Below, piece by piece: positions 3,795-33,712 of a DNA stretch of 43,796 bases. This stretch comes from Lachnospiraceae bacterium (GTDB lineage Bacteria; Bacillota; Clostridia; Lachnospirales; Lachnospiraceae): NCBI GenBank assembly GCA_017440375.1, contig JAFSHK010000059.1, forward strand, positions 69,045-112,840. The letters run 5' to 3'. The notes under the pieces are model-generated. The model ran no database searches and was not told where the DNA came from. It saw only the letters and a program-made list of their open reading frames with translations. Position 1 is the stretch's first letter; each line of letters starts with the position of its first letter. The position numbers were made by a program, and so were the translations under genes.

Positions 3795-3853
3795 GTCTAA
3801 CCTCCGTACCATACACTTTTGTCTTTCAGATTAAGCAACGTATGGCAACTTAT

Positions 3854-3885: not shown

Positions 3886-4665
3886 TTATTTTGTATCTGT
3901 TCTTTTTCTCTCTACCATATCATGGAGATGACTGATGGCATCTCTAATCCCACCTACCTCACTGATAATCCCTTCTTCTACAGCTTCTTTTCCGACAAGA
4001 ACAGTTCCGACATCCTTGGTTAACATTCCGGTTTCCATCATTAGTTCTTCCAGACGAACTTTTGATATTTTACAATGGTCACATACAAAGCCGGTAATAC
4101 GATTCTGAATCTGTTTGAAGTAATCAAAAGTCTGTTGTACACCAATTACCATACCATTTAAACGTACCGGATGAATTACCATCGTTCCAGTTGGTACAAT
4201 ATAAGAATAATCGGTACTTACCGCAATCGGTACACCAATTGAATGACTTCCCCCAAGCACCAAGGATACTGTCGGTTTGCTCAAAGAAGCAATCATTTCT
4301 GCAATCGCAAGACCTGCCTCTACATCACCGCCCATTGTATTTAACAAAATCAAAACACCATCAATTTCCTTGCTATCTTCAATCGCTGCAAGCTGTGGCA
4401 AAATATGTTCATATTTTGTTGTTTTGGAAGAACTTCCCAGATTATCATGCCCTTCTATTTCACCAATAATCGTAATCAAATGAATATTATGCGCCAATTC
4501 GCTTTTATCAAGCGTAAGCTGCCCTGTCTCTTCAATTCTTTCATCACGATGTTTCTCTGCTTCTATTTTCTCCTCTTTCTTTGCTTCTCCGTTTTGTTCA
4601 TTATTATTTTTATTATTGCATTTATTTTCTTCTCTCTTCTTATTCTGATTATGCTTATTTCCCAT
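3886..4665 (-). CDS. tepA: ClpP-like serine protease, TepA/YmfB family
   Basis: Member of the ClpP/crotonase-fold protease family related to Bacillus TepA (YmfB), a cytosolic protein linked to protein export or quality control. About 259 aa. The first 60 residues are a Lys/Glu/Asn-rich tail, then the ClpP-like fold: LLNTMGGDVEAGLAIAEMI, the nucleophile-region LGGSHSIGVPIAV, and the putative catalytic His in TMVIHPV. The canonical ClpP nucleophile context GxAASMG is changed to GGSHSIG, as in TepA-type proteins. An upstream in-frame ATG at 4758 exists, but the ATG at 4665 has the ribosome binding site AAAGGTGGAG and avoids reading into the palindromic repeat, so it is preferred. Adjacency to ftsK/spoIIIE matches the Bacillus order. 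Confidence 0.85.
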   Translation of the reverse strand: MGNKHNQNKKREENKCNNKNNNEQNGEAKKEEKIEAEKHRDERIEETGQLTLDKSELAHNIHLITIIGEIEGHDNLGSSSKTTKYEHILPQLAAIEDSKEIDGVLILLNTMGGDVEAGLAIAEMIASLSKPTVSLVLGGSHSIGVPIAVSTDYSYIVPTGTMVIHPVRLNGMVIGVQQTFDYFKQIQNRITGFVCDHCKISKVRLEELMMETGMLTKDVGTVLVGKEAVEEGIISEVGGIRDAISHLHDMVERKRTDTK

Positions 4666-4693
4666 CCGAACAACTCCACCTTTCTGACTTACT

Positions 4694-4914
4694 ATTATTA
4701 GGCAATTGCGAAACTTCAAATTACTCTTATTATATTGTGCATGATTAACAATTACCATAAGCAGGTGCTGTGTGTCCGTCGGTACTTAGATGCTGTAGTT
4801 TAGCATCTTACGTGCCGCTACGGACAAAACTGCAGCGAGAGCGTGCCTGCGGTGGTTTGTTAATTATGCACAATTTCTACAAAGTAAATAGGAGTTTCGC
4901 AATTACCTACTACT
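4694..4914. repeat. Long imperfect palindromic (MITE-like) element
   Basis: This 324-bp gap (4666-4989) holds no gene. Arms of about 55 bp at 4694-4750 and 4857-4914 are inverted copies with roughly four in five bases matching; both contain CAATTGCGAAACT or its near copy and TTGTGCAT/TTGTGCATAA. Between them is a second nested hairpin: TGTCCGT (4773-4779) opposite ACGGACA (4820-4826), and a perfect 7-bp stem AGATGCT/AGCATCT around a 7-base loop (4788-4808). The whole can fold into one long hairpin on either strand. It encodes no protein and sits between the tepA start and the terminator of the upstream gene. The left arm carries a TATAAT pointing toward tepA (4734-4729) without a good -35. 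I see no second copy in this window. Confidence 0.75.
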
Positions 4915-17469: not shown

Positions 17470-18675
17470 TTAGAGTGTTTCTAATGTCTCGCGGATTGCT
17501 TTAATAAAGTTCTCGCTGTTTAATACGGTTACGTCTTTCAAAGAGGTAATCAATGCCAAGTCCTTAGTCATTTTTCCCTCTTCAATAGTCTTAATGGTTG
17601 CTTGCTCTAATTTATCTGCAAATGCCATCAAATCCTGATTATTGTCTAACTCCCCACGTTTTCTGAGTGCTCCTGTCCATGCAAAAATAGTTGCTACGGA
17701 ATTGGTGGATGTTTCCTCACCTTTCAGGTACTTGTAATAATGTCTCTGAACTGTTCCATGCGCTGCTTCATATTCATAAACACCGGATGGAGAAACAAGT
17801 ACAGAAGTCATCATCGCAAGAGAACCAAATGCAGAAGATACCATATCGCTCATAACATCGCCATCATAGTTCTTACAAGCCCAGATAAAGCCACCTTTTG
17901 CTTTCATAACACGAGCAACGGCATCATCAATCAATGTATAAAAATACTCAATGCCCGCTTCTTCAAATTTCTTTGCATATTCGTTATCATAGATTTCCTG
18001 AAAAACATCTTTGAAATTATGATCATATTTCTTAGAAATCGTATCTTTTGTCGCAAACCACAAATCCTGCTTTGTATCCAGTGCGTAGTTAAAACATGCT
18101 TTTGCGAAGCTTGTAATAGATTTGTCTGTGTTGTGGATACCCTGTAAAATACCGGCTCCGGTAAAATTATGTATGGTTTCTCTTATTTCTGTTCCATCCT
18201 CTGCTGTGAAAACAAGTTCTGCTTTTCCGGCACCCGGTACTTTGATTTCTGTATTCTTATATACATCACCATAAGCATGACGCGCTAAAGTAATCGGTTT
18301 CTCCCAGTTTTTCACACAAGGTTCAATACCTTTTACAATAATCGGTGCGCGGAAAACGGTTCCATCCAAAGCCGCACGAATTGTACCATTTGGACTCTTC
18401 CACATTTCTTTCAAATTATATTCTGTCATTCTGGCTGCATTTGGTGTAATGGTTGCACATTTAACAGCTACTCCATATTTCTTTGTTGCTTCTGCTGAAT
18501 CTATCGTAACCTGATCATTTGTCTCATTACGATGTTCTAATCCCAAATCATAATATTCTGTCTTTAAATCAATGTAAGGCAATAACAATTCATCTTTAAT
18601 CATTTTCCAAAGAATTCTTGTCATTTCATCTCCGTCCATCTCGACTAAAGGCGTAGTCATTTTTATCTTATCCAT
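17470..18675 (-). CDS. icd: NADP-dependent isocitrate dehydrogenase (eukaryote-like type II)
   Basis: Oxidative decarboxylation of isocitrate to 2-oxoglutarate with NADP+; cytosolic homodimer. 401 aa. Family motifs: [21 protein letters not shown], the substrate-binding [40 protein letters not shown] and [19 protein letters not shown]. The sequence follows the type II (mammalian IDH1-like) enzymes and not the E. coli type, as seen in several clostridia and Thermotoga. Ribosome binding site AAAGGAGACAGG. Third gene after a probable Re-citrate synthase and a GntR regulator. No aconitase gene is in the window. Confidence 0.95.
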
Positions 18676-18717: not shown

Positions 18718-19419
18718 TTATTCCTCTGTTGGTGTATCACCATAAATTTCATATAAACCATTTTTTACCATATTATCATATGCGTTTATCATATGCTGGT
18801 TAGCAAGTTTTTCGGCTCGGTCAGCATCTTTGGCTTTAATTGCTTCCATAATCTGTTTATGCTCATTATTAGAAGCATTTCCCCTGCTGTTGGTTGAGAG
18901 CGTCTTCTGTCTGACTCTCAAAACATACTGATGAAAATCTTTTAACAAATGCTCTAACATCTTGGAATCACTTGCTTCATACAAAATGTCATGAAAACGA
19001 TTGTCCAATTCTGCCATTTGGTCCATATGCCCTTTTCCGGCATGGAACTCCGCCAGATAAATGTTTTCTTCCATTTCCTCCATCTGCTCTTTGGTAATTT
19101 TCTCTGTTGCCATTCTGGCGCATAAACCCTCTAGCAAAGAACGAATCATATATATATCTTTTACATCCTTTGCCGTAATCCCTGTTACATAAGCACCTTT
19201 ATTCGGAATAATCTGAATCAGCCCTTCTAATTCAAGCTGTCTGAAAGCTTCTCTAACCGGAGTACGGCTAACTCCTAATTCCTCTCCAATAGCAACTTCT
19301 TTTAATTCTTCATATTCTTTGTATTTTCCGCTCAAAATGTCTTCTCTGATTTTCTGGAAGACTCTCCCCCGCAAAGAATACTTGTCATTTACCGCATGCT
19401 TGATATCATAATTATTCAT
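18718..19419 (-). CDS. GntR-family regulator, FadR/FCD subfamily
   Basis: 233 aa. N-terminal winged helix-turn-helix at about 15-80 (GEELGVSRTPVREAFRQLEL, then EGLIQIIPNKGAYVTGIT) and an all-helical FCD ligand domain at about 90-220 with the metal or ligand-binding pattern D-x3-H in DNRFHDILYEASD and later histidines (NEHKQIM, ANQHMINAY). FCD proteins bind small organic acids. Lying between the citrate synthase-like gene and icd, it probably senses a TCA or amino-acid intermediate and controls this operon. A strong palindrome overlaps the operon promoter (20934-20955). The ligand is not known. Confidence 0.92.
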   Translation of the reverse strand: MNNYDIKHAVNDKYSLRGRVFQKIREDILSGKYKEYEELKEVAIGEELGVSRTPVREAFRQLELEGLIQIIPNKGAYVTGITAKDVKDIYMIRSLLEGLCARMATEKITKEQMEEMEENIYLAEFHAGKGHMDQMAELDNRFHDILYEASDSKMLEHLLKDFHQYVLRVRQKTLSTNSRGNASNNEHKQIMEAIKAKDADRAEKLANQHMINAYDNMVKNGLYEIYGDTPTEE

Positions 19420-19493: not shown

Positions 19494-20909
19494 TCAATTG
19501 CTTTTTAAGGTCAAATTGAGTTTCTCACAAGTTTTTTCAATCTGTGACACCAACTCTTCATCTGTTAAAACGATAACTCGTCCGGAAGCATATTCTTCAT
19601 CCACCCAGATTTTTAATTCTTTCACTAATTCACAGTTTTTATCCAACACTTCATTTTCACGGAGTTTGTAATATGTATTAATCCAATGTGCAATACCTGC
19701 TAAGCCGGAAGTATTCGATACTGCACAAAGTACTGGTCTGTTTAAGAATTTATCCGTATCAAAAATATTGTAAATTTCTTCGTTTTTCAACAGTCCGTCT
19801 GCATGAATGCCGGCTCTTGTTACATTGAAATTCTTTCCGACAAAAGGCGTTCTCGGTGGAATCTCATACCCGATTTCTTTTTCATAGTATTCCGCTAAGT
19901 CTGTAATAACAGTTGTATCCATACCATTCAAATCGCCTTTTAACTGAGCATATTCAAATACCATAGCCTCCAATGGTGTATTACCGGTTCTCTCTCCAAT
20001 ACCAAATAAAGATGTATTGACTCCGGCACAACCATAAATCCATGCTGTTGTAGAGTTGGATACTGCCTTATAGAAATCATTATGTCCATGCCATTCGATT
20101 AAGGACTGCGGTACGCCTGCATGCGTATGAAGAGCATAAATAATACCCTGAACACTTCGCGGAATAACGGCACCAGGATAATTAACACCATACCCCATTG
20201 TATCGCACGCTCTAATCTTAATCGGAATTTTATATTCTTCCATCAATTTCATTAATTCCATACAAAACGGAACTACATAACCATAAATATCTGCTCTTGT
20301 AATATCTTCCAAATGACATCTTGGACTGATTCCCTCTTCCAGACAATCACGAATAACACTTAAATAATGATCCATCGCCTGTCTTCTTGTCATTTTTAAT
20401 TTCAAGAAAATATGATAATCGGAACAACTTACCAAAATTCCGGTTTCTTTCATGCCGATATCTTTTACCAATTTGAAATCTTCCTTACTGGCACGAATCC
20501 AACTTGTAATTTCCGGAAATTGATAACCACGTTCCATACATTTGTATACAGCATCTCTATCCTTCTTGCTATATAAGAAAAATTCACTGGCACGAATCAT
20601 ACCGTTCGGGCCACCTAATTTATGCAGATAATCATAAATTGTTACAATCTGCTCTGTCGTATAAGGCGCTCTGGACTGCTGTCCATCACGAAAAGTTGTA
20701 TCCGTAATCCAGATATCTTTCGGCATATTATGCGGTACTGTTCTATCGTTAAAAGGTATCTTCGGTATCTCTGAATACGGAAACATATTTCGGAATACAT
20801 TTGGCTTCGGTACATCATCCAAAATGTACATATGCTCTTCAATCTCTAATAAATTATTTTTCTCATTCATCGTTACCGGACGATTCAAAAAAGTTCTTTC
20901 GCTACTCAT
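19494..20909 (-). CDS. Probable Re-citrate synthase (isopropylmalate/homocitrate synthase family)
   Basis: 471-aa DRE-TIM metallolyase. Signature TDTTFRDGQQSR at residues 69-80, a catalytic-region RASEFFLYSKKDRDAVYKC, metal-binding HGHND, and the second family signature GERTGNTPLEAMVFEY. It has no C-terminal LeuA regulatory domain and a longer N-terminus than homocitrate synthases. Linked to gntR and icd, it best fits the Re-face citrate synthases characterised in Clostridium kluyveri and relatives (acetyl-CoA plus oxaloacetate giving citrate), which were long annotated as isopropylmalate or homocitrate synthases. Homocitrate synthase is the alternative; context favours citrate. Ribosome binding site GGGAGGAG. 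Confidence 0.82.
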   Translation of the reverse strand: MSSERTFLNRPVTMNEKNNLLEIEEHMYILDDVPKPNVFRNMFPYSEIPKIPFNDRTVPHNMPKDIWITDTTFRDGQQSRAPYTTEQIVTIYDYLHKLGGPNGMIRASEFFLYSKKDRDAVYKCMERGYQFPEITSWIRASKEDFKLVKDIGMKETGILVSCSDYHIFLKLKMTRRQAMDHYLSVIRDCLEEGISPRCHLEDITRADIYGYVVPFCMELMKLMEEYKIPIKIRACDTMGYGVNYPGAVIPRSVQGIIYALHTHAGVPQSLIEWHGHNDFYKAVSNSTTAWIYGCAGVNTSLFGIGERTGNTPLEAMVFEYAQLKGDLNGMDTTVITDLAEYYEKEIGYEIPPRTPFVGKNFNVTRAGIHADGLLKNEEIYNIFDTDKFLNRPVLCAVSNTSGLAGIAHWINTYYKLRENEVLDKNCELVKELKIWVDEEYASGRVIVLTDEELVSQIEKTCEKLNLTLKSN

Positions 20910-20933: not shown

Positions 20934-20955
20934 GTATAATTGTATACAATCATAC
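20934..20955. promoter_or_regulatory. Operator-like palindrome over the citrate synthase operon promoter
   Basis: 22-bp palindrome with one mismatched pair: outer GTAT and ATAC arms around a perfect ATTGTATACAAT core. It covers the -10 of the operon promoter. GntR-type operators are short palindromes with GT and AC at fixed places, so the FCD regulator encoded in the same operon is the natural candidate. Confidence 0.65.
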
Positions 20956-20967
20956 CATTTATGTCAA
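20939..20967 (-). promoter_or_regulatory. Sigma-A promoter of the citrate synthase-gntR-icd operon
   Basis: Minus strand: perfect -35 TTGACA (20967-20962), 17-bp spacer, -10 TACAAT (20944-20939). It begins three bases from the end of the protease gene. Confidence 0.8.
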
Positions 20968-20969
20968 TA

Positions 20970-21857
20970 TCAATACAGCAATTTCTCAATATCAATCATT
21001 CCCCAGCCTTGCTTATTCCAAGCATCCCCCAAATCTTTTGCACTATATACAATTTTTCTTTTTACTTGTTCGTTATTTAAATATGGATATTTCTGCAAAA
21101 GTAATGCCGCTGCACCTGATACAATCGGCGTTGCCATAGAAGTACCGCTTTTTTTTACATAAAAATTTCCTTTATTACTGCAAGACATTATATCAGTACC
21201 TGGTGCTACAACATCCGGTTTACGAATTGGTTCATCCTTATCCCCTCTACCGGAATAATTTTCACACAAATCATTTCTTTTTCCAAAATAACCGCCTTCA
21301 TGACATCCTACTGTAATTATTTTTCGACTTTTTCCCAGCGGCGAAATCGTTCCATTACTTGGTCCTGCATTTCCTGCCGCACAAACTACAACAATTCCCG
21401 CATCCCAGACAGCCTCTAACAACCCGGATACTTCCTCCAGTTTTTTTCGTTCCCCATTTTGCCCAATACCAACAGAAATATTTAAAACCCGAATGCGATA
21501 ATGCAGACGATTCTTTATAACCCACAATAGCCCCTGATACATACTCTCTATAGAACCGTCACCTTCTTTATCTAATACTTTTCCTATACACAGCATACAC
21601 TGCGGTGCGATTCCTCTATACTTGCCACCAGAAGAAAGACCGTTTCCGCCAATACACCCGGCAACATGTGTTCCATGCCCACTGTCATCATATATCATAC
21701 TTTTTTGGTTTACAAAATCTTGAAAAGCTATAATTCTTCCCATAAAATCAGGATGCGGATAAATTCCAGTATCCAGTACCGCTACTGTCACCGGGCTACC
21801 TTTGCATGATTGTTGCAAAATGTCATTGCATCCAAGTTGTCTTCGAACACGAAACAT
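20970..21857 (-). CDS. Subtilisin-like serine protease (S8), no signal peptide
   Basis: 295-aa subtilase. Catalytic triad in standard motifs: D29 in VAVLDTGIYPHPDF, H61 in DDSGHGTHVAG, S240 in SGTSMATPIVSGAAALL; the oxyanion region reads VVCAAGNAGPSNG. There is no signal peptide, and only about 20 residues precede the catalytic core, so there is no long propeptide; intracellular subtilisins are organised this way. It is the last gene after the two LRR surface proteins. The ribosome binding site GGGAG is inside the hairpin at 21858-21899, seven bases before the ATG. Whether it acts on the surface proteins, the sortase or unrelated targets is unknown. Confidence 0.93.
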   Translation of the reverse strand: MFRVRRQLGCNDILQQSCKGSPVTVAVLDTGIYPHPDFMGRIIAFQDFVNQKSMIYDDSGHGTHVAGCIGGNGLSSGGKYRGIAPQCMLCIGKVLDKEGDGSIESMYQGLLWVIKNRLHYRIRVLNISVGIGQNGERKKLEEVSGLLEAVWDAGIVVVCAAGNAGPSNGTISPLGKSRKIITVGCHEGGYFGKRNDLCENYSGRGDKDEPIRKPDVVAPGTDIMSCSNKGNFYVKKSGTSMATPIVSGAAALLLQKYPYLNNEQVKRKIVYSAKDLGDAWNKQGWGMIDIEKLLY

Positions 21858-21899
21858 AAAAAAACTCCCGGCTTTTTCCTTATTTTATGCCGGGAGTTT
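21858..21899 (-). terminator. Terminator-like hairpin that contains the protease ribosome binding site
   Basis: Minus strand AAACTCCCGGC, 16-base loop, GCCGGGAG plus T: an 11-bp perfect stem followed by a T run that leads directly into the protease ATG. The GGGAG in the 3' arm is the only ribosome binding site for that ATG. The structure could end transcription of the LRR operon and, in read-through RNA, hide the protease start. Confidence 0.8.
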
Positions 21900-21925
21900 A
21901 CTTACGGTTACTATTATTCTATTGT

Positions 21926-24793
21926 CTATACTTTCTTCACACGCACGAAACGTTTCTTCCCATTATAGAAGAATAACGCAAGTCCCGTAAAAAGAAGTCC
22001 GACCCCTAAGAACCACTTCGGATGAATGCTGTTATCACCTGTATTAGGTGAATCATCCTTTTCACCGGACAATGTAGTAAAGATTGCCTGTCCGTCATTT
22101 ACCTTGGCTGTATTACCTGAAAGATAATTATAAATACCGTAATACGAGAAATGGGTTGCTTTAAAAATGATACAAGCTGTACCATCTACAGAAGAAATTC
22201 TGCTTTCAACCTCTTCCAACTGGCCATTTGCATCCAGACAAACTACATGAAGATTTTCTTCTCCAACGCCTTCCGGCATCGGTATCGTAATTTCCATCTC
22301 CTGTCTGCCAAGTCCTGTAATCGGGATGGATGTATCAGTTTCCTGCAAAGTTACATCAAATGCTTTTAAATTCGACGGAATCGCATCGCCATAATATGTC
22401 TGATAAGTTTCTTTAATTTCCTTTGCTGCACTGTCACTGTCTACAATCTTAAGAATATAGTCTTCTTCTGCGCCATCCATAATGGCACTGGCTAAACTAT
22501 CATCCTGAATTGACTTACTGCTGATTCGAACCGCAATATTCTGCATACTATTTTCATCTGTTTCTTCAGCACTCTCAGTTTCAGTATCCTGCCTCGGAAT
22601 GTTAACCTTATCAATTGGATACATCTTACCTCCAATATTAACCTCATCCGGATAATGTACCAAAGATACACCATCTGTCTGAATTTTCTTAATCTTAAGA
22701 TAAGATTCCTCTTCTTCAGAACCTTCCGGCGTCCGCATTTCTATGCTACAAATCAATCCTTTAAAACCGGATAGTTCTTCGTCCAGAACAGTCTCGTCAA
22801 AATTAGTCATATTCTGTGGCACTACAGCGATATCCACGCCCGCAAATGCCAAATCTCTATAATTATCATTATACAATTTGGTAGATGTCTTTTCAAAAGA
22901 TAATGTGGGTAAAGTATCTCCTTTAAAAATAACTACATTATCACTTTCCGAAGCAACTGAATCCGTTACGTCAAATGCCCGAAGTCCCACTTCCTCTACT
23001 GCGGATAGTATTTTAATATTCTGCATCGGACATCCTTCAAATGCTCTGTCCTTAATCTGTTTTACATTTTTGCCACCCTCTAAGGTTGTCAAATTACCAC
23101 AACCGGCAAAAGCATTTTCTCCAATTACCTCAACACTATCCGATAAAACAACTTTCGTGATGCCAATATGATTAGCAAATGCACTAGGACCGATTTTCTT
23201 TACACCATCCGGAATCGAAATAATACTATTGCTTCCACGATATGCAAGTAATATACCATCACCTACAATAAGAAATTCACCGTTTCCGTTTTCTTTCCAA
23301 TTTTCAAGCCATGCACTCTTCTCAAATGCAAAAGGCTCAATTTCTGTTACTGTTTCCGGGATGACAACATCAATCAGACTATCACAGTGATAAAAAGCCG
23401 CATATCCAATCTTTGTAACACCTTCCGGAAAATACATCATTCTTATGTCCGAACGAGCAAATGCAAAATCACCGATTTCCGTAATCGTATCCGGCAATTC
23501 AATATCTTCCCTCGAATCCCTGTAATATGCCTGATTAGCAACAATGCTTTCATCAATTATGGTATATTTCGGGAAGAGAGTCCCTTTCTTCTCTGTATTA
23601 CCTATGATACTTGCAATCTTCTCTGTTCCGTCATTTTCTGTTTCTTCAATATTATCTTCCGGTTTTCCTGAATTAACCGTAGCATTGGAATTATCAATAA
23701 AAACAAATGCCTGATTACCAATAATCTTCGTTTTTCCTTTTACAGAAGCATCTTCTTCTGCTTCCAGTGCATTGATATGCGTCACTTCATGATAATAATC
23801 AAACAGCTCTTCCTCTTCCTCCGTTATCATACCCTCATCGTTATCCTCTTCTGCTATATCCGCATCCATCGTTGTTGCAGAAGTATCTTCATATTCAGCC
23901 ACATCTATATCTTCTAATACAAGGCTGTCTGCATATGCTTTTGCAGCACTACCTTCTTCGGCTTCGATTTCTAACTTGGTACACCCATCAAAAGCAGTAC
24001 TATGAATCTCCTGTACGGACGCCGGTATTGTAATCTTACGCAATCTAATACAGTCTTCAAATGCCTTCACATCAATGCTTTTTACAGAATATGGAATTTG
24101 TACGTCCGTCAAATTCGCACAGTTCGAAAACATAAAATCAGATATTTCTGACACATTGTTACTGATAGAAACTTTCTGTATGTTCTTATTTCCCCAAAAA
24201 GCATAAGGTTGTACTTGCTCTACTGTTGACGGCATAATATAGCTTTCATTCTTTCTGCCCGCAAGTAAAGAATACAAAATGTTCCTGCCATTTTTATTAT
24301 AAATAGCCCCATCTTCACATATTAATTTCGGATTATTACTGTCAATATTTACATCTACAAGACTGGTATCTCCTGCAAAAACACCATTTCCAAGTATCTC
24401 TAATCCTTCTCCAATTTCTACCGTTTTCAAAGATGGACAACCTGCAAAAGCCGCTTGTTCAATACTTTCTACAGAATCCGGAATCATTACTTTCTCTAAC
24501 TGGTCGCATCCTTCAAAAGCACTTGCTCCAATTACTTCTACGCTACTTCCGACGATAACATTTTTAATCGTATCATTATCTGCAAAAGCCTCTGCTTCAA
24601 TTTTTTCAACGGAATTAGAAATAGACACGTCCGTTGCCGTGCCATTATATTTCACTAATGTAGTTCCATCCATTTTAAAATCAGATGCAGAAGCGGTTCC
24701 TACCGCCTCCACATCTGACACTGGTATCTGAGTAACAACAATTGCTAATGCTGTTAACATCGCACCTATTGCTTTTCTTATCTTTTTTCCCAT
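21926..24793 (-). CDS. Sortase-anchored leucine-rich-repeat surface protein (955 aa)
   Basis: Secreted wall protein with a Lys-rich signal peptide and hydrophobic core at residues 1-30. Two blocks of BspA-type LRR_5 repeats of about 22-23 residues (about 35-300 and 400-640; units such as IGASAFEGCDQLEKVMIP) are split by a strongly acidic low-complexity stretch (about 300-355). Then comes a membrane-proximal domain (about 750-895) ending in IIFKATHFSYYGIYNY, and a sorting signal at 915: SPNTGD, NSIHPKWFL, a hydrophobic segment and a basic tail. SPxTG-type motifs suit class B sortases of clostridia. The ATG overlaps the stop of the larger LRR gene by one base (TAATG), so the two are coupled. 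The ligand is unknown; BspA-type repeats occur in adhesins. Confidence 0.92.
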   Translation of the reverse strand: MGKKIRKAIGAMLTALAIVVTQIPVSDVEAVGTASASDFKMDGTTLVKYNGTATDVSISNSVEKIEAEAFADNDTIKNVIVGSSVEVIGASAFEGCDQLEKVMIPDSVESIEQAAFAGCPSLKTVEIGEGLEILGNGVFAGDTSLVDVNIDSNNPKLICEDGAIYNKNGRNILYSLLAGRKNESYIMPSTVEQVQPYAFWGNKNIQKVSISNNVSEISDFMFSNCANLTDVQIPYSVKSIDVKAFEDCIRLRKITIPASVQEIHSTAFDGCTKLEIEAEEGSAAKAYADSLVLEDIDVAEYEDTSATTMDADIAEEDNDEGMITEEEEELFDYYHEVTHINALEAEEDASVKGKTKIIGNQAFVFIDNSNATVNSGKPEDNIEETENDGTEKIASIIGNTEKKGTLFPKYTIIDESIVANQAYYRDSREDIELPDTITEIGDFAFARSDIRMMYFPEGVTKIGYAAFYHCDSLIDVVIPETVTEIEPFAFEKSAWLENWKENGNGEFLIVGDGILLAYRGSNSIISIPDGVKKIGPSAFANHIGITKVVLSDSVEVIGENAFAGCGNLTTLEGGKNVKQIKDRAFEGCPMQNIKILSAVEEVGLRAFDVTDSVASESDNVVIFKGDTLPTLSFEKTSTKLYNDNYRDLAFAGVDIAVVPQNMTNFDETVLDEELSGFKGLICSIEMRTPEGSEEEESYLKIKKIQTDGVSLVHYPDEVNIGGKMYPIDKVNIPRQDTETESAEETDENSMQNIAVRISSKSIQDDSLASAIMDGAEEDYILKIVDSDSAAKEIKETYQTYYGDAIPSNLKAFDVTLQETDTSIPITGLGRQEMEITIPMPEGVGEENLHVVCLDANGQLEEVESRISSVDGTACIIFKATHFSYYGIYNYLSGNTAKVNDGQAIFTTLSGEKDDSPNTGDNSIHPKWFLGVGLLFTGLALFFYNGKKRFVRVKKV

Positions 24794-27700
24794 TATGCCA
24801 TCCTTGTTTTTGCTGCATTCTTATCTTTCTTAATAAATAGGATAATAGACAAGCATGCAAGACCTAGTGACAAGAACCACTTCGGATGAATTGGATCTCC
24901 GGTCTTCGGTGTGACATCAAGCAAACCTTCTGTCAGATTGCCTGTATCAACATATACTGTATATGGTGAGAAGTGTGTTGCTGTAAAGGTAACGCATGGA
25001 ACACCATTAATCGTTGTAAACTTCTCACTTAATTCTTCTAACTGCGCATTTTCAACAGGATTATAATCTACTACTGCTCCCGCCATATTGTTACCGCCAT
25101 AGCTTAATAAAGCATCTGGGATCGGAATCGTAATATCAACAGACAGTCCTGTTGTATCAGTAATCTTAGTAGTACCTGTAGAATCATACAAACTGATATC
25201 CATTGCATAGTAAAGGATATTCTCAAGACTACCGTATTTGTTTGTCAATGCGCTTGCTACTGCCTGTGTTGCTTCCTGTGTCTCTGAAATCTTAACAATG
25301 AAGTTATCAGAAGAACCATTTACATTTGCAGTTGCCAAATCTTTATTGCTGATACCAGGTTTTGTAATATCTACTCTTGTATTACCATCCTGCGTATTAT
25401 CCGCATTATTATTGTTATTATTATTTGCTGTACCTGTCACTGTACTAGCTGTTGATGTGGTTGCACCATCTGTATATTCTGCCGTAATCGTAACATTATT
25501 AGACGGCATTACAAATGTTGTTGGTGACACGCTGACACTGGCAAGTGTTACACCCTGTGATTCTGTTGTCCACTTACTAAATACCTTACCAGCAGCCGGA
25601 GTATTTGCTGTAATAATTACCGTTGCTCCCGGTGCATAACTACCACTACCACTACCACCAATAACCGTTACCACGTACTGTCCTGTAGCTGCCGCCGTCG
25701 TCGATGTCGCTGACGTAGAGGACGTCGATGTTGATGTTGACGACGTCGATGATGACGTTGATGTTGCTGACGTTGATGTCGTATTACCAGATGTATTGGT
25801 TGTACCTCCGGAAGTATTTGTGGTTCCGCCGGATGTAGTACCAGTTCCACCAGTATACATCGCCAAAATTGTTAAATTCTTCTGAACATTCGAATATTCT
25901 TCACTACTCCATTTCTGGAATGTATAACCAGAATGAACAGGTGCTTGCGGTGCGATTGCTGCCTTGCCCGGCTCAATGTATTGTGTTGCACCAATTTGTT
26001 TACCATCAACCTGATCGATAAACATAACTGTATACTTACCGTTCACCATGCCACTATCTGAATATCCCTGTGCAACAAAAGTTGTATCCGAAGTAATTTT
26101 ATCACTCACTTCTACATTATTTGTTCCAAGCCATTTCTCAAATGTCCAATTAGCCTTTGCAGGACACTCCGGAACCTCACTGATATAGGTATTATCATCT
26201 ACATAAATCGGATCCCCTACCTGATTTAAATCAGAATCTAAGAAAACAACTTTCCACTGATCACTTATCTGCTCATAAGTAAGTTTATACTCATCGGAAT
26301 AAGTATCTGCATATCTACGCGCTGATGAATCCTCATATGTACGAACCATCGTCCATGCTTTCGCATCATCACTTTCAAATGCCCTTGCAGAAATAAATAC
26401 TTCGGTTCCCGGAACGGTCAATTCTACAAGCTTCAAGTCATTTACAAAGGCACCTTCTTCAATGTTATTAACACTTCTAGGTAATGCAAGTCTTGTTAAA
26501 TCGCTACAATTCTTGAAACAATCCTTCGGCACTGCTACCAAATCATCTGCTTCTGACAAATCAACAAGATTGATATACTTACATTCTTCAAAAGCGCCTT
26601 CCTGAATCGCGCTGACATTGGCAAGATTAGGATCTGTAGAAACACTGACCTGTGCTCCTCCAACCAAATTGCCTCGTGCCGGCAAACATTCTTCTATTGT
26701 ATAAGACTCATCTACATTAACGGAATAAACAATACCATTTTCTGTCTTATAGTAATCATTATCTCCAACAGAAATCAAGGAATAACAACCTCTAAACGGT
26801 GCCGTTCCAATATCCTTACAGTCAGGTCCAAGGATTACATATTGCAATCTTTCACAACTATCAAAAGCATAATCCGGCAAATACTTCACGTTACTCAACG
26901 TCACAGATTCAACCCTGTCATTTCCACGCTTATACTGCTCATAGTTTGTTTCACCGGAACTATACTTATCATAATAATAACCACTAAATAAACCAGGTGT
27001 AATATCGGTAACCGTATTTTCATCTGTTTTATTCTTGTTATTATACATGTTATAAGAATCAGTGCCAATTCGGTCTCTATCTAAATAGATTCTGGCATTG
27101 TTCTTATTCTTAGCCGCTTCCATACCTTCCCCATTGCTGAATCCATAAGCATCAATCGATTCAACTCCGGTTGGTACAACGATATTCTTCGTTGCTTCTA
27201 CCAAAGCGCGCTCTTCTTCTGTCGGAGCTCGATAAATATTACCGGATTCCGCATTCTGAATCACATCGTATGGATACGTAGTATAGAATGGTGCCGGATT
27301 ATCTGCTGCTTCTACCACAAGTGGATCAAACAACATATCTGCAAGTGCAGTGAGAACAGTTGGTTCCTCTGTATTATTAGATGATGTTAAAAATGTCTGC
27401 CAATTGTTACAGAAATCACTATTAACCCACGGACCATACTCACTTGATGCATAAACTGCCGCCTTTGCTGCCGTAGGGTCAACGGTGTCATTTACTGCCG
27501 CTTTCCATGCTTCCGCAAAAGCCTTGCGATAAGAATCATACTCGGTAGCCTTGTATATCTCATAATATCTGGATTCCATCATGTTCTCATAGGAACCGTA
27601 ATTGCCACTTGCTATTTCAATACTATGTGCATCGTTCAGAACATCGCTAATCTGATCATATTTTGGATAATCAAGCAATGTGACAAGCCGTGTATTAGCA

Positions 27701-30051
27701 TCATACATAACCGTCAAATATGTCGGTGTTAAACTCTTATAACAAACTCTGATACCATCCGTTACATTAATAAGGTTACTTTCATCCATCGCCCATTCAA
27801 ACGGTGCATAACCTTCAACAATATCACCATGGAATGTTAATTCCGGTCCAACAGTCTTAAAAGCATCTGTTCCAATCGTAAAGGAATCATGACCACCCAA
27901 AGGTGTATTAAAGGTAACATCAATCAAATTCTCGCATCCTTCAAAAGCGCTGGCTCCAATCGATGAAACTGAATTACCAATATATGCTTTCTGCAACTTC
28001 TTCCATCCCTTAAAAGCACCATCATTGATAATAGAAATGGAATTATCCTCGATGGTTAAGGTTCTTACTCTTTGATTCATATCATCATCACTGAAACAAT
28101 CTGAGGCTATTCCTGTTACCTTCGTATTGCCTACTTTTTCAGGAATAACCAAATCAATCATATCAGTGCTGCTTGCGCCATCTTTTAACGTACAGGAAGT
28201 TAAAACTCCTCTGTTGTCAACACTAAGCAGATAAGTACCATCGCTTACCTCATAATATGCCAAACCATTTTTCATATACAAATAAGGTACAACTTCTGAT
28301 ACGGCAGTGCTGGCATCCCATGTAGTCTCACGTGGAACTGCAATACTCTTGCTTCGGTCTAATTCCGGTCCCTTCACATAGAAATCCGGATTACTTACCG
28401 TAGCAAATAATTTATCAGGTGTGTAACCAGCCAAACCACAAGAACCGCTTCCATCATCCGGAAATTCCACACAAGACAAATTAAAACAATTATAAAAAGT
28501 ATTATCCGGAATCGTAGCTCCTGTTGCTCTACCAAAATCAGCCGGCATAATTACCTTTTCCAAATTAGTTCTTCCTGCCAAAGTACAGTCACCAAGTCCA
28601 ACGCCTCCAGCACTTACCTTGCTTATTTTAGAAGGGAACGTAAAACTTGTCATGGAACCAACCACACCCGACTCCACAGCAAACGCTCCATCTCCAACAG
28701 TGTCAATATTGACTGTTACAGTCGGCGAACTTGCTTTCATCATATTTACTTCATTTAATGCTATGGCATTATAAAAAGCATATTCATCAATCTTAGCCGG
28801 ACTGGTAGTAATTTTGGATAAATCAATTTTTGTCAAGGACTCACAATAAGCAAAAGCTCCCGGTCCAATTTCTTCGATTGACTGCGGGAATGTAACGCTT
28901 GTTAACCCAGAACCATAAAAAGCTTCTGTACCAAGCGTTGTCGTTCCTTCGCCCATATTAACTGCTGTTAACTGAGAACAATTTTTAAATGCAAAATCAC
29001 ATATTTCTTGTACATTGTAAAACGAAATTTCTTTGATAAACGAATTTTCAAACGCACTTACACCAATGTATTTAATTTCCTTCGGCACTGTCAGATAATA
29101 TACATTTTTGGTATCTTTAAATGCTTTATCGCCAATGCCAATAATACTGGAATCTGCTGTATACTTAAATCCCTGATCGTCAAACTTTCCACTTGGAGTC
29201 TGTCCTGTAATTTTCTGCGGAATATAAATATAATGGTTTGTCTGCCCTGATTTTTCTGAATCAATAACGTATGCCAGCTTACATCCTTTCAAACTCTCTC
29301 GGTTATTGGTCGGACTCTTATTCTCATCACAATAATATTTTAATTTCTGGTCATCCGATAAATCAGATGGAGTTTTCGTTAATAATGGTTTCTGTGGTTT
29401 TGTATCGTCCGTTGCATTAACGTCTCTTTGCCATTTTGCCAACTCCGTTTCATAGGTCTGCCACTCTTTCACATAATTCTGATAAGCAGTATTAAAATAT
29501 TCATTTAAAAATATATCATCCGGATTTTCCAAATCAGGTTTCGCGTTTACCGTATAGCTTACACCTTCATCAACACATTTCTGATAAAATGCATCATACT
29601 GTGTAGTCTCTATCTTATCATATTGATAAATGACATTTGGATTTAAAACAACGGTATCCTGCTGATATGTACTGTTATATTTACTAATAATACCTCTATA
29701 ATTTCCTTCAACTGTTGTAAGGAAAAATTTAAACTGCCAATCAAGCTGGTATGTTCCATCACTTAATGGTGTGATAATGTATGCCCGATTGTCATTATCT
29801 GGGTCAGCAGACTTTAAATTAGTTGGTCTGCATGTCACTACATTTTCATCCACTCCATACGCATACTTATCCGGAACAGGAATTGAAGTCGTCGTACCTG
29901 TACCAGTTCCACCTGTACCCGTCGCAAAGTTCTCCGGAACCGGAACAGCAGCTACACCAATAGCCGTAACCATCAATACCGCTGCAATACTACGTCTGAT
30001 ACTCCTTTTTAATCTTCTCTTTGTTTTTTTTACTGGTGCTTTCGTTGACAT
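24793..30051 (-). CDS. Giant sortase-anchored leucine-rich-repeat surface protein (1752 aa)
   Basis: Secreted wall protein. Basic signal peptide (1-45), a unique region (45-295), then BspA-type LRR_5 blocks from about 297 to 1220 interrupted by a non-repeat insert (about 760-930). Two InlB B-repeat-like modules follow (about 1260-1394; KVVFLDSD, YTVMFIDQVDGKQIGATQYI), then a Ser/Thr-rich stalk (about 1397-1453), a bacterial repeat module (about 1455-1534; VFSKWTTESQ, TFVMPSNNVTITAEYT), an Asn run, and a membrane-proximal domain (about 1560-1700) ending VTFTATHFSPYTVYV. The sorting signal is TPKTGD at 1714 followed by PIHPKWFL, a hydrophobic segment and basic tail. Ribosome binding site AAGGAGAGAG. 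It follows the sortase by 48 bp, and its stop overlaps the next LRR start. Confidence 0.93.
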   Translation of the reverse strand: MSTKAPVKKTKRRLKRSIRRSIAAVLMVTAIGVAAVPVPENFATGTGGTGTGTTTSIPVPDKYAYGVDENVVTCRPTNLKSADPDNDNRAYIITPLSDGTYQLDWQFKFFLTTVEGNYRGIISKYNSTYQQDTVVLNPNVIYQYDKIETTQYDAFYQKCVDEGVSYTVNAKPDLENPDDIFLNEYFNTAYQNYVKEWQTYETELAKWQRDVNATDDTKPQKPLLTKTPSDLSDDQKLKYYCDENKSPTNNRESLKGCKLAYVIDSEKSGQTNHYIYIPQKITGQTPSGKFDDQGFKYTADSSIIGIGDKAFKDTKNVYYLTVPKEIKYIGVSAFENSFIKEISFYNVQEICDFAFKNCSQLTAVNMGEGTTTLGTEAFYGSGLTSVTFPQSIEEIGPGAFAYCESLTKIDLSKITTSPAKIDEYAFYNAIALNEVNMMKASSPTVTVNIDTVGDGAFAVESGVVGSMTSFTFPSKISKVSAGGVGLGDCTLAGRTNLEKVIMPADFGRATGATIPDNTFYNCFNLSCVEFPDDGSGSCGLAGYTPDKLFATVSNPDFYVKGPELDRSKSIAVPRETTWDASTAVSEVVPYLYMKNGLAYYEVSDGTYLLSVDNRGVLTSCTLKDGASSTDMIDLVIPEKVGNTKVTGIASDCFSDDDMNQRVRTLTIEDNSISIINDGAFKGWKKLQKAYIGNSVSSIGASAFEGCENLIDVTFNTPLGGHDSFTIGTDAFKTVGPELTFHGDIVEGYAPFEWAMDESNLINVTDGIRVCYKSLTPTYLTVMYDANTRLVTLLDYPKYDQISDVLNDAHSIEIASGNYGSYENMMESRYYEIYKATEYDSYRKAFAEAWKAAVNDTVDPTAAKAAVYASSEYGPWVNSDFCNNWQTFLTSSNNTEEPTVLTALADMLFDPLVVEAADNPAPFYTTYPYDVIQNAESGNIYRAPTEEERALVEATKNIVVPTGVESIDAYGFSNGEGMEAAKNKNNARIYLDRDRIGTDSYNMYNNKNKTDENTVTDITPGLFSGYYYDKYSSGETNYEQYKRGNDRVESVTLSNVKYLPDYAFDSCERLQYVILGPDCKDIGTAPFRGCYSLISVGDNDYYKTENGIVYSVNVDESYTIEECLPARGNLVGGAQVSVSTDPNLANVSAIQEGAFEECKYINLVDLSEADDLVAVPKDCFKNCSDLTRLALPRSVNNIEEGAFVNDLKLVELTVPGTEVFISARAFESDDAKAWTMVRTYEDSSARRYADTYSDEYKLTYEQISDQWKVVFLDSDLNQVGDPIYVDDNTYISEVPECPAKANWTFEKWLGTNNVEVSDKITSDTTFVAQGYSDSGMVNGKYTVMFIDQVDGKQIGATQYIEPGKAAIAPQAPVHSGYTFQKWSSEEYSNVQKNLTILAMYTGGTGTTSGGTTNTSGGTTNTSGNTTSTSATSTSSSTSSTSTSTSSTSATSTTAAATGQYVVTVIGGSGSGSYAPGATVIITANTPAAGKVFSKWTTESQGVTLASVSVSPTTFVMPSNNVTITAEYTDGATTSTASTVTGTANNNNNNNADNTQDGNTRVDITKPGISNKDLATANVNGSSDNFIVKISETQEATQAVASALTNKYGSLENILYYAMDISLYDSTGTTKITDTTGLSVDITIPIPDALLSYGGNNMAGAVVDYNPVENAQLEELSEKFTTINGVPCVTFTATHFSPYTVYVDTGNLTEGLLDVTPKTGDPIHPKWFLSLGLACLSIILFIKKDKNAAKTRMA
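25690..25850. repeat. Low-complexity triplet tract coding the Ser/Thr stalk
   Basis: Imperfect repeats of GACGTC/GATGTT-type triplets and longer TCCGGA-type units inside the giant LRR gene. They encode the Ser/Thr/Gly stalk. Length changes in multiples of three would keep the frame. Confidence 0.7.
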
Positions 30052-30099
30052 GTCTCTCTCCTTCTGTCAGTAACACATATTTATCTGATAGATATACAA

Positions 30100-31281
30100 T
30101 TACTCTATTCTTTTGGCAACAACTACGAAACGTCCATCCTCTTCCGAGTTGTCACATGTCGATAAGGTTAGCAATTCGTCACCATAACTTGCTGTCACAC
30201 CTGTATCGTATAAAGATATTGCTTTCATTTCCTGCATATTGGAATTGAACTCTTTTTCGGAAGCCGCATCAAAAAACTGATAATACTTAAAAACGATTTC
30301 GTCCTCATTATAAATTCTGGAACGAAAAACATACATAATCTGATAGGTTCCTTTTTCATATATTGAATCAAACTGAATAATCGGATGCTCTTCATAATAA
30401 CTTTTATTGCTGTATTTATTAAGATTGCCGAACATCTTCCCAGACTTCATGTGATGTCCATAGATAATAAGATTTGTATTTCTCCTCACCACATCACAAT
30501 CCTTGTCCAAAAAAAGACTTCCGTTTTTGTCATATTCCTGATTGAAATTATGATCCAGATAATATTCATTATTGGAAGTCTGCATAACCGGATAGTCTAT
30601 GTTTGTATCGTCAATTTTTAGCCATCCGATTAGACTTTTGTTTTTATTATATAAAGTTTCGTATTCTTTTAATACGGTTAACTCTATTTCTTCCTCTTCT
30701 GTATAGTGTATTGTAACACTTTGCGCTCCGGTAGATAAATTACTGCCTTTCAAATCCGAAAGCTGTTCATAATCCATCTGCGTTCGATCTGCAAAATAAT
30801 AGTAAACACCATAATAGCCGAAGCAGGCAAGTGCCACAACCGCACAAAGAACAACCGTAAGCTTCCTGCGTTTCTCTTTTTGATTAAGAACTGCTTTGAT
30901 TTCCTGTTGCATTCGTTCATCATAATCTTCTAAAGAAACTTTTGTGGGTTGCTTCTGGTCGTTTTTTTTCTCTGCTTTTTCAATTTTTGTTTTCTTTTTT
31001 TTCTGCTTTTTCCTGGAAGATTTTATTTTGCTGTCCTGCGTATATCCCTGCTTCTTATACTTCTCTGCAAGTTCATATACTTCATCATCAAAATCATTCC
31101 CAACCATTGTTGTAAAATGATATTTTCCAGCTTGTAAATCTGCCGAAAGTTTAATAACTTCTCCCGGCTGTTCCATGTTTACTTTCGCTCTGATTGCATC
31201 TATCTGTGCCTGATCCCGCAATGCTGCATTGTAATCTGCCTGTGTCCGGAACTGTCTTCCTGCAACGCTAAAACCAGTCAT
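30100..31281 (-). CDS. srtB: Class B sortase with a long cytosolic N-terminal extension
   Basis: Transpeptidase that cuts sorting motifs and joins surface proteins to the peptidoglycan cross-bridge. 393 aa, longer than typical class B enzymes (about 220-260). Residues 1-140 are hydrophilic: a small domain (QFRTQADYNAALRDQAQIDA, then FTTMVGNDFDDEVYELAEKY) followed by a Lys-rich stretch. One membrane segment (141-163) precedes the extracellular catalytic domain. Catalytic residues: His276 or His277 in IIYGHHMKSG, Cys376 in TLSTC, Arg384 in DGRF. WLKIDDTNIDYPVMQT is the usual class B entry. Its two neighbours carry SPNTG and TPKTG motifs, its likely substrates. The start follows AAGGGG; promoter at 31359-31386. 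Confidence 0.92.
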   Translation of the reverse strand: MTGFSVAGRQFRTQADYNAALRDQAQIDAIRAKVNMEQPGEVIKLSADLQAGKYHFTTMVGNDFDDEVYELAEKYKKQGYTQDSKIKSSRKKQKKKKTKIEKAEKKNDQKQPTKVSLEDYDERMQQEIKAVLNQKEKRRKLTVVLCAVVALACFGYYGVYYYFADRTQMDYEQLSDLKGSNLSTGAQSVTIHYTEEEEIELTVLKEYETLYNKNKSLIGWLKIDDTNIDYPVMQTSNNEYYLDHNFNQEYDKNGSLFLDKDCDVVRRNTNLIIYGHHMKSGKMFGNLNKYSNKSYYEEHPIIQFDSIYEKGTYQIMYVFRSRIYNEDEIVFKYYQFFDAASEKEFNSNMQEMKAISLYDTGVTASYGDELLTLSTCDNSEEDGRFVVVAKRIE

Positions 31282-31414: not shown

Positions 31415-33301
31415 TTATATCATAACGCTGTTTTTTACACTGACAAATTGTAAAAACTGATTTTCAGGAAGCGGTTTTGAGAAATAATATCCTTGGATAT
31501 AATCAATTCCTAATTCCACGATCGTTTCCATTTGTTCTTTTGTTTCAACACCTTCGGACACAATCTCAAGTTCCATATCATGAATCATATGCATTGCTGC
31601 TTCCATGACAAATTTCGCCTTCTGATTTGCAAAATATGCCTGGCTCATATCTTTATCAAATTTAACGATAGATACCGGCATATCAACAATATAATTCAAA
31701 TTACTCTCGCCATTTCCGAAATCATCCAGCGAAAACGAAACCCCATAATCAATTAACACCTGCATATTATCAAGTAGAATACTCCTTGCTTGAATGGATG
31801 CGGATTCTGTAATCTCCAGATTGATATTAGATGGATCCAAATCGTATTTTTTCATAATGCCAATATACAAATCTGCAAGTTCACGCCCTTCACATTGTTT
31901 GACCGACAGATTTACTTCCACATAATCAATCCCATAATACTCACGCAAATTATTTTCCTTGATAAAACGACAAGTCTTATCAAAGACAATTTCGCCAATC
32001 TGCCAAATCAAACCTGTTGATTCCGCCATCGGAATAAACACACCCGGCGGAATAATTCTTCCGTCTTTCTCACGAATACGTACAAGCGCCTCCGCCGAAA
32101 CAAATTTCTTTTTCTTCGTCGAATAAATAGGCTGATAGAACACTTCTATTCTATCTTCTTCTATTGCGGAAAGAATCATAGCCTCAACTACTTCTCTTTC
32201 TCGCATTTTGGCGATTTGTTTTTCATCCAACAGAACAATTCGTTCCTCTACTCTTTTTTTGCCTTCCACACGGAAGAAATGCATCATACCGAAAATTTCC
32301 TCCGGATTACGAACCAGACTTGAATCTTGTAACAGCACATAATACGGATCAAGATCAAAATATTTTTCTTTTATCCAATCTTTTACTGAATCAAAAACCT
32401 CCTGCATCTGTTCTTTATTTCTGAAAATCAGAGCAAGCTCTTTCTCAAGCGTTTTAAAAACTCTGACTTCTTTATTCTTCTCTATAAAATTAATAACTTC
32501 CTGCATCACAACATCTTGTCTGACATCATCATTTTCATTAGCTTTTGTTGATTCCGTTAACACAATCAAAATCGCCGAAAACTTTTCATTCATTGCATAA
32601 AGCTGTTTCATATATTCCACAAGCGCATGCGCATTAAATGCTCCTGTTTCTCGATCCAAATTCGCTTCCGGATTCTCCAGTTCAAAAAACAAAATAACCA
32701 TGCCAAGGACAGAAGCAAAACCTACCAATAAGAGTTTCGCATTCAAAAACTGTATTACTGCAGCAATAATCCAAATAATCATCCAAATGACAACTGCTTT
32801 TCTTCGTTTTGGATTCATTTTTTTACCTCTGGCAGTAACTTTATAAAGAGTAGCAAGTACAAACAGTAGCGCAAAAACATACGTTGCCATACAACTCGGT
32901 CCATATGTATAAACCACATTCCCGTCCAGATAATACCGAATCGGCAACGCATATATTATCGCAGTTCCTAACAGAACCATAGCTGTATAAACCTTAACAA
33001 GCTGCTTCTGTTCATCCCCATCATTAATATCCGTACTGGAATATACTAACCCAAAATAGCCAACCCATACTAATAAAACAATATATGTTTTACAGACAAA
33101 TGCCAACAACCATCCCGGTATAGACTGCATATTTACAATGGCAACAATAGATAAAATATCCAAAACAACACAAACGGTCGTAAACGCCATTGTTGTCAGG
33201 AACAATCTTTCCGAATAAAGCCCTAACGTTCTTTGTTTAAAATAAAAAAACCAAAGCAGTGCTAAAATTATGAGACCGCAACATTGTACTTCAATATTCA
33301 T
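31415..33301 (-). CDS. Membrane-bound EAL-domain c-di-GMP phosphodiesterase
   Basis: 628 aa. Residues 1-210 contain about seven hydrophobic segments (a MASE-like sensor region). Residues about 215-350 resemble a GGDEF domain but lack the GGDEF signature, so cyclase activity is unlikely. The EAL domain (about 375-620) keeps the expected catalytic and metal-binding residues: EALVRI, EVNLSVKQ, LEITES, SLDDFGNGESNL, IVKFDK, IVSEGVET, IQGYYFSKPL. It therefore likely hydrolyses c-di-GMP. Ribosome binding site GGAAGGATAAGG. It lies 133 bp upstream of the sortase start on the same strand; the sortase has its own promoter in that gap, but read-through is possible. Confidence 0.93.
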   Translation of the reverse strand: MNIEVQCCGLIILALLWFFYFKQRTLGLYSERLFLTTMAFTTVCVVLDILSIVAIVNMQSIPGWLLAFVCKTYIVLLVWVGYFGLVYSSTDINDGDEQKQLVKVYTAMVLLGTAIIYALPIRYYLDGNVVYTYGPSCMATYVFALLFVLATLYKVTARGKKMNPKRRKAVVIWMIIWIIAAVIQFLNAKLLLVGFASVLGMVILFFELENPEANLDRETGAFNAHALVEYMKQLYAMNEKFSAILIVLTESTKANENDDVRQDVVMQEVINFIEKNKEVRVFKTLEKELALIFRNKEQMQEVFDSVKDWIKEKYFDLDPYYVLLQDSSLVRNPEEIFGMMHFFRVEGKKRVEERIVLLDEKQIAKMREREVVEAMILSAIEEDRIEVFYQPIYSTKKKKFVSAEALVRIREKDGRIIPPGVFIPMAESTGLIWQIGEIVFDKTCRFIKENNLREYYGIDYVEVNLSVKQCEGRELADLYIGIMKKYDLDPSNINLEITESASIQARSILLDNMQVLIDYGVSFSLDDFGNGESNLNYIVDMPVSIVKFDKDMSQAYFANQKAKFVMEAAMHMIHDMELEIVSEGVETKEQMETIVELGIDYIQGYYFSKPLPENQFLQFVSVKNSVMI

Positions 33302-33469: not shown

Positions 33470-33712
33470 ATGAGTGACTTATCAGCAACAAACTGCGGAT
33501 GCAGCAGCAACACAAATTATAGTAACAATGGATGTTGTTCCATCATCTGGCTCATCATTCTATTTTCTATCTGCGGCAACAACAACAACGATGGCTGTGG
33601 ATGCGGCAATGGCTTCGGCTTTTTCAACAACAATAATTCCGACTGCGGATGTTCCTGGATTTGGATCCTTCTTCTGCTTTGTTTCTGTGGTAATGGCAAC
33701 TCTTGCTGCTAA
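33470..33712 (+). CDS. Cysteine-rich small protein, possible spore-surface peptide
   Basis: 80 aa with 13 cysteines, many Gly and Asn, and two hydrophobic Trp-containing segments, CCSIIWLIILFSICG and CGCSWIWILLLLCFCG, which look like an internal duplication joined by NNNNDGCGCGNG-type linkers. The ATG has a strong GGAGG 8 bp upstream and the gene is closed by a perfect terminator (33742-33772), so it is probably real. Similar cysteine-rich peptides in clostridia are often annotated as high-cysteine chorion-like proteins; a spore coat or forespore role is inference from composition and a possible sporulation promoter. Another overlapping frame starting at 33474 is a shadow. Confidence 0.75.
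   Translation: MSDLSATNCGCSSNTNYSNNGCCSIIWLIILFSICGNNNNDGCGCGNGFGFFNNNNSDCGCSWIWILLLLCFCGNGNSCC

Follow-up and report, generated by a model that had tools for sequence, protein, structure and literature searches.

Whether a protease encoded beside a sortase and its substrates takes part in surface display, or has come to lie there for another reason, is the question raised by one locus of a Lachnospiraceae bacterium. The locus is part of a stretch of 43,796 nucleotides (the window) of contig JAFSHK010000059.1, from an assembly of 1.94 Mb in 66 contigs that is 68% complete. Open reading frames and family models place a class B sortase (SrtB), two leucine-rich repeat (LRR) proteins and a small S8 subtilase (S8) where an earlier note, made from the sequence alone, had them. 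At a probability of about 80%, we read the row as two unrelated units that abut: a SrtB-LRR display operon and a putative mother-cell sporulation protease, S8, the promoter of which would lie inside the terminator of the operon.

The genes on the minus strand follow the order EAL phosphodiesterase, SrtB, LRR1, LRR2, S8, ReCS, GntR and isocitrate dehydrogenase (IDH), with LeuRS and EF-G upstream of the row and an ABC-F ATPase downstream (Table 1). ReCS resembles citrate/homocitrate synthases and exceeded the cut-off of none of the NCBIfam models; the name used here is short for Re-citrate synthase. The label aconitase ('ACN?') for the 644-aa gene on the plus strand was dropped, as this gene encodes the ABC-F ATPase. 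A search of the window against Rfam yielded 0 matches at gathering scores and thus no known riboswitch or other RNA family. The EAL-domain gene lies directly upstream of SrtB in the window genome, and no match to its product was labelled among 40 fetched SrtB or S8 stretches. Upstream of it, on the opposite strand, a small ORF encodes a Cys/Asn/Gly-rich product without an NCBIfam match.

Table 1 Features of the locus (positions within the window)
Feature	Position	Strand	Remarks
80-aa ORF	33470..33712	+	
EAL-domain phosphodiesterase	31415..33301	-	
SrtB, class B sortase	30100..31281	-	393 aa; ORF and family model
LRR1, secreted BspA-type LRR protein	24793..30051	-	1752 aa; signal TPKTGD-PIHPKWFL
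HPKWF codons, LRR1 signal	24874..24888	-	HPKWF search of genome
LRR2, secreted BspA-type LRR protein	21926..24793	-	955 aa; signal SPNTGD-NSIHPKWFL
HPKWF codons, LRR2 signal	22010..22024	-	HPKWF search of genome
Sigma-K-type -35 AC	21907..21908	-	17 nt upstream of -10; consensus from PMC3789822
Terminator-like hairpin	21858..21899	-	11-bp perfect stem and T7
Hairpin parts	5' arm 21899..21889, loop 21888..21873, 3' arm 21872..21862, T-tract 21864..21858	-	sequence, folding
Sigma-K/E-type -10 box CATAAAATA	21881..21889	-	last base (C) of 5' arm and loop
GGGAG, Shine-Dalgarno-like, of S8	21865..21869	-	in 3' arm of hairpin, 7 nt before ATG
S8, small subtilase	20970..21857	-	295 aa; D29 H61 N163 S240
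Promoter-like TTGACA-17-TACAAT before ReCS	20967..20939	-	promoter scan
ReCS, HMGL-like citrate/homocitrate synthase	19494..20909	-	profile matches
GntR/FCD regulator, conserved flank	18718..19419	-	profile matches
IDH, NADP isocitrate dehydrogenase, conserved flank	17470..18675	-	profile matches
ABC-F ATPase	15474..17408	+	644 aa; profile matches

The sortase and its leucine-rich repeat substrates

SrtB scored 162.3 bits against the class B sortase model TIGR03064, above the curated cut-off of 153.75, and matched solved SrtB structures at sequence level. Its catalytic residues H276, C376 and R384 are invariant in 25 aligned rows. A cytosolic N-terminal region (residues 1-138) is followed by a transmembrane segment at about 141-162, as judged by eye, and then by the catalytic domain. 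The N-terminal region carries the pattern FxVxGRxFRTxxDYxAALRD...DFDDEIYEL and matched no Pfam family over its cut-off; matches to it occurred in 27 of 200 genomes, mostly on sortase-length frames, and weak ones on five frames of about 180-210 aa.

LRR1 and LRR2 both contain LRR_5 domains in a profile search and end in TPKTGD-PIHPKWFL and SPNTGD-NSIHPKWFL, respectively, each followed by a transmembrane stretch and KK. By eye, the two proteins show the features of sortase substrates, namely a signal peptide, a pentapeptide, a hydrophobic stretch and a basic tail; the sorting signals had been recognized before and were found again in relatives. The genome of the window encodes HPKWF at just two places, one in LRR1 and one in LRR2, and the reversed control gave zero. 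Among 299 genomes, 34 of 86 HPKWF sites were no more than 15 kb away from a SrtB orthologue and covered 29 of the 39 genomes with such an orthologue. Of the remaining sites, 15 were found in other parts of these genomes, partly on different contigs, and 37 in the 260 genomes that lack a SrtB orthologue, where the rate was about that of the reversed control (33 in all).

Nearly all complete LRR1 proteins of the relatives end in [ST]P.T[GA]D and an HPKWF-like stretch, with slight deviations in loci L063 (NPKTGD) and L094 (TPKTGE). In L069, L080, L082, L085, L092 and L095 the signal reads PKTAD instead of PKTGD, so that the sortase would have to cut between T and A there. The P.TG signal is found on LRR2 in many relatives; it is missing in L068, L082, L085, L088, L092, L095 and L099, and in L062, L066, L069, L084, L094 and L096 the LRR2 frame is short and without a signal. 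A further 70 loci contained 70 such sorting signals, distributed over 55 loci, and TPKTGD was the commonest of them (39).

The conservation of the arrangement was assessed by a SrtB search of 299 genomes of the family Lachnospiraceae, in which scores fall gradually and the orthologue cut-off (E about 1e-86) was chosen after viewing them. The loci of 37 of the 38 closest relatives other than the window were fetched (G277 was left out), together with three further S8 stretches. The first set held 38 SrtB loci, i.e. 37 orthologues and the cut SrtB of G208; a second set held 80 loci, 70 of which were new. An LRR gene, defined as lying within three ORFs on the same strand, was present downstream of SrtB in 34 of the 38 loci, and the other four contigs stop within 1.6 kb. 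Among the new loci, 60/70 had an LRR match within 6 kb downstream of SrtB; five of the other ten end within 1.7 kb, and the remaining five (L146, L147, L184, L188 and L190) continue for 2.6 kb or more, with other genes or without any. In L147, a SrtB of 72% identity is followed by relatives of two genes from the far end of the window (3886..4758 and 1071..3812) and not by an LRR gene, so that the locus is rearranged there.

In the window genome, at its 68% completeness, this SrtB is the only sortase of any class found; genomes G060, G031, G264 and G213 hold two to seven each. The local HPKWF signals and the single sortase support a sortase with local substrates, and together with the recurrence of the LRR genes they bear out the proposal of a conserved display unit with its own transpeptidase. 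The gene order recurs in several genera and is more than chance. Translational coupling of the LRR genes through a TAATG overlap had also been proposed; one base is indeed common to both frames here, but in 25 relatives the distance between the two genes lies anywhere from -20 to +98. SrtB-LRR is, as predicted from these features, a display operon of known kind with a variant of the signal, by which this gut bacterium apparently makes surface proteins and anchors them itself. The unit of one sortase and two LRR proteins with its own signal should be useful to predict surface proteins of uncultured Lachnospiraceae.

The small subtilase and sporulation

S8 scored 169.3 bits against Peptidase_S8. 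The Asp-His-Ser triad and the oxyanion Asn are all present in 60/60 aligned rows, including an intact triad in the window protein. The Bacillus intracellular subtilisin (ISP) has a short N-terminal inhibitory propeptide with a LIPY motif; in the window S8, 28 residues precede the catalytic Asp. By eye the protein has no signal peptide, in line with the earlier description. Its best NCBIfam match, the type VII secretion mycosin model TIGR03921, remained below the cut-off (141.1 vs 278.75 bits), as did the models of the Csp germination proteases CspBA (75.7 vs 1250 bits) and CspC (56.1 vs 675). In L063 (genome G037) an in-frame stop interrupts the S8 homologue close to the N-terminus, with SrtB and both LRR genes open.

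The distribution of S8 was compared with that of the sporulation gene spoIVA and of SrtB in the 299 genomes, with an S8 cut-off of E<1e-36 that was chosen after viewing the scores. S8 and spoIVA were both present in 172 genomes and both absent from 99 (odds ratio 116, P 1e-48, kinship being ignored); the exceptions were 7 genomes with S8 only and 21 with SpoIVA only. Expressed as frequencies, spoIVA occurred in 172/179 genomes with S8 vs 21/120 without. No association was evident between S8 and SrtB, S8 being found in 19/39 genomes with SrtB vs 160/260 without (P=0.16); in these counts G208 is tallied as lacking SrtB, yet it has an island, i.e. a SrtB-LRR locus, that is cut by the contig end (L099). 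Within the SrtB-containing genomes, S8 was present in 18/21 with SpoIVA vs 1/18 without it, and only three (G100, G241 and G273) had SpoIVA and lacked S8. The sole genome with SrtB and S8 and without a SpoIVA match is that of the window itself, at 68% completeness. This genome has strong matches to a sigma-K model (E 6e-83 and 3e-72). Such matches occurred in 10/10 tested genomes with S8, its own included, and in 0/8 tested genomes with SrtB and without S8 (E 4e-20 or weaker), the curated cut-off of the model being passed by only 1 of the 18 and also missed by B. subtilis. On the SrtB tree, in which 17 of 35 inner branches are unresolved, the absences of S8 and SpoIVA are scattered, and the starred branches force at least 5 and at least 7 changes, respectively; in the sister pairs G235/G213, G264/G190 and G184/G236, S8 and SpoIVA are kept or lost together.

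In genomes without a SrtB orthologue, small S8 proteins of 43-50% identity are encoded about 6 kb or less from ReCS and/or IDH (loci L116-L119, L121 and L124-L143). Among the matches listed, S8 lay within 8 kb of IDH in 27/82 genomes without SrtB, with about 0.5% expected; the count was 28/83 before G208 was moved on account of its cut island, and the IDH positions of G082 and G142 were taken from the fetched loci. In 12 of these 25 ReCS/IDH-linked loci (L116, L121, L124, L131, L134-L137, L139 and L141-L143), no more than 1 kb separates S8 from a Csp-like subtilase gene, which is divergent in 11; 19 island and 15 unlinked stretches yielded no such gene. The term Csp-like (CspB/CspC-like) is based on matches under the curated cut-offs for 6 of 10 scanned neighbours and on tblastn identities of 44-53% to one of those; the other four scanned neighbours were cardiolipin synthase (twice), a methyltransferase and another subtilase. 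In the sister-species locus L098, a beta-lactamase-family gene (Pfam PF00144; 7589-8740) on the opposite strand separates LRR2 from S8.

The sequence of sortase, LRR, LRR and S8 genes thus does co-occur in other genomes, as had been asked of it, and this co-occurrence is explained by a shared chromosomal site. The inclusion of the subtilase in the display unit does not stand, since S8 is independent of SrtB, follows spoIVA and stays near ReCS/IDH where there is no sortase; its inversion in some islands and the terminator-like hairpin and putative sporulation-type promoter in front of it are further evidence. Judged by genome content and gene order, S8 is a sporulation-tracking small subtilase and no member of the display unit; the earlier note was right in its observation and half right in its interpretation. 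A conserved neighbourhood can mislead, as S8 behaves like a spore gene and not like the partner of a sortase.

Hairpin and promoter box upstream of the subtilase gene

The 68-bp gap between LRR2 and S8 contains AAACTCCCGGC, 16 nt and GCCGGGAGTTT, with further T's before the ATG of S8. This sequence forms a hairpin (z -4.1) that had not been mentioned before. A GC-rich 11-bp stem and T7 give it the shape of a presumed intrinsic terminator, with a large loop of 16; a terminator scan of the window, which takes loops of 3-8, did not list it. Promoters for sigma-K have the consensus AC at -35, 16-17 nt and CATANNNTA, and a pattern of this type is found upstream of S8, where a C is located 17-18 nt upstream of the box CATAAAATA. 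In the sections of PMC3789822 that concern C. difficile promoters, the -35 element is ATA for sigma-E and AC for sigma-K, with CATATAAT as an example of the sigma-K type. The -35 element of S8 fits AC and thereby points to sigma-K, sigma-E also being possible.

A set of 47 co-oriented island leaders was compiled from the window and the family genomes (18) and from the new loci (29); loci that duplicated earlier ones were left out, as were L078, L084 and L207, in which S8 is inverted. With [CA]ATANNNT at 22-75 nt upstream as motif rule and stems allowed one mismatch, CATANNNT was present in 47/47 leaders, a C at -17 or -18 in 45/47 and a stem of at least 7 pairs with 4 G-C in 40/47; in the other 7 no clear hairpin was found. 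In L091 the site picked by the rule is probably wrong, and the hairpin loop there holds AATAAAGTA. Stem positions -3, -5, -6, -7 and -8 vary between C-G, T-A, G-C and A-T with pairing mostly kept, i.e. by compensatory changes. The motif CATANNNTA was found upstream of 42/49 S8 genes vs 6/234 controls (SrtB 3/105, ReCS 2/52, GntR 1/38 and IDH 0/39), the looser CATANNNT upstream of 47/49 vs 30/234, and a C at -17/-18 before CATANNNT in 45/49 S8 vs 8/234 control leaders.

S8 genes outside the islands lack the hairpin and carry the box or a variant in which A replaces C. The motif [CA]ATANNNTA was missing from 2/20 island, 7/25 ReCS/IDH-linked and 4/15 unlinked S8 leaders, and the unlinked ones mostly show A for C. 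Among the motif-bearing leaders only (18/20 island, 18/25 ReCS/IDH-linked and 11/15 unlinked), a hairpin was present in 13/18 island vs 0/29 non-island cases. We infer that the putative promoter is that of S8, and that the hairpin is part of the end of the neighbouring operon.

Proposed mechanism, alternatives and related systems

As known for the family, SrtB in the membrane would cut between T and G in the [ST]P.TGD signal of LRR1, and usually of LRR2, and would link the secreted LRR proteins to peptidoglycan. S8 would be a small cytosolic protease of the mother cell during spore formation that acts there or in the forming spore, probably on spore or mother-cell proteins that it matures or turns over; the Csp-like neighbours suggest a role in the maturation of spore or germination proteins. 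In the operon RNA, the hairpin would serve as transcription terminator and hide the ribosome site of S8; as DNA, it would carry a sigma-K-type -10 box over the end of the 5' arm and the loop, with a C at -17/-18. An RNA started at the loop box would lack the 5' arm, so that the long stem could not form and GGGAG would be free for translation of S8. In folding of the shortened RNA, GGGAG was mostly located in a small loop and not in the long stem. We give even odds to the fuller proposal of a conserved three-in-one element, consisting of a terminator, the -10 box of a mother-cell promoter in the loop and a Shine-Dalgarno sequence in the 3' arm, together with S8 as an undescribed family of sporulation or germination subtilases often paired with Csp-like genes. 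With such an element, no spore protease would be expressed from the vegetative surface operon, and S8 would be freed only by sigma-K polymerase starting in the loop. It would be a compact regulatory element of 42 bp that joins terminator, promoter and ribosome-site switch, backed by the compensatory changes.

That the four genes form one functional island, in which the LRR proteins or the sortase are substrates that S8 processes or sets free, intracellularly or after non-classical export, is most improbable. S8 is adjacent and on the same strand in most S8-bearing islands, and the island S8s form a clade of their own (19/20), so that there may be some island-specific co-evolution of S8. This model is opposed by the lack of association with SrtB and the strong one with SpoIVA, the inverted orientation in L078, L084 and L207, the position near ReCS/IDH even without a sortase, the intervening hairpin and putative promoter, and the absence, by eye, of an export signal. 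Islands without S8 are also common: of 53 new loci that extend for at least 9.9 kb downstream, 30 gave an S8 match. The proximity to ReCS/IDH both with and without a sortase could instead tie S8 to the citrate synthase-GntR-isocitrate dehydrogenase genes, in metabolic turnover and not in spores. We consider this very unlikely, because ReCS/IDH remain in islands that lack S8 in SpoIVA-free genomes (e.g. L070, L075, L080 and L087), 15 S8 loci have neither gene in the fetched stretch, and promoter-like sites precede S8 and ReCS alike.

The hairpin, with its stem-loop and T-tract, has the ordinary shape of an intrinsic terminator and might be a terminator only, with CATANNNT in the loop as a by-product and S8 expressed by read-through. 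This is highly unlikely in view of the -10 box and upstream C at S8 genes that have no hairpin or LRR gene, the loop box that is kept while stems change, and the rarity of CATANNNTA in control leaders. The abutting of a display operon and a sporulation protease remains the preferred reading, and its less ordinary part is the sporulation-tracking subtilase with a conserved, terminator-like hairpin that holds the predicted promoter box and ribosome site.

Among the matches listed in a search of the open-access literature, as judged by titles and abstract openings, there was no account of a SrtB-LRR-S8 locus or of the hairpin. C. difficile SrtB (PMC4371152) is, like the sortase of the window, a class B sortase with an S/P-P-x-T-G signal (SPKTG is cleaved there) and a putative adhesin as substrate, and in both the typical haem-binding substrates are absent. 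In the window, the sortase and two LRR substrates stand in an operon-like row, the signal is [ST]P.TGD with a conserved IHPKWFL, and a long cytosolic N-terminal region precedes the transmembrane segment. According to PMC3789822, isp (CD2000) of C. difficile is controlled by sigma-E and annotated as an intracellular serine protease; it resembles S8 in annotation and in its mother-cell sigma factor, which is putative for S8, and differs in that the -35 element of S8 fits sigma-K (AC) better than sigma-E (ATA).

The LRR adhesin HupY/LrrG is likewise an LRR surface protein, and its model gave 106 bits to LRR2, far below the cut-off of 1250. Its anchor is of the LPXTG type. The Csp germination subtilases (CspB/CspC/CspBA) are spore-linked members of the S8 family, unlike which the small S8 has 295 aa and no prodomain. 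Because its distribution across a large gut family follows sporulation, the small subtilase S8 is a testable candidate for a role in spore maturation or germination in commensals.
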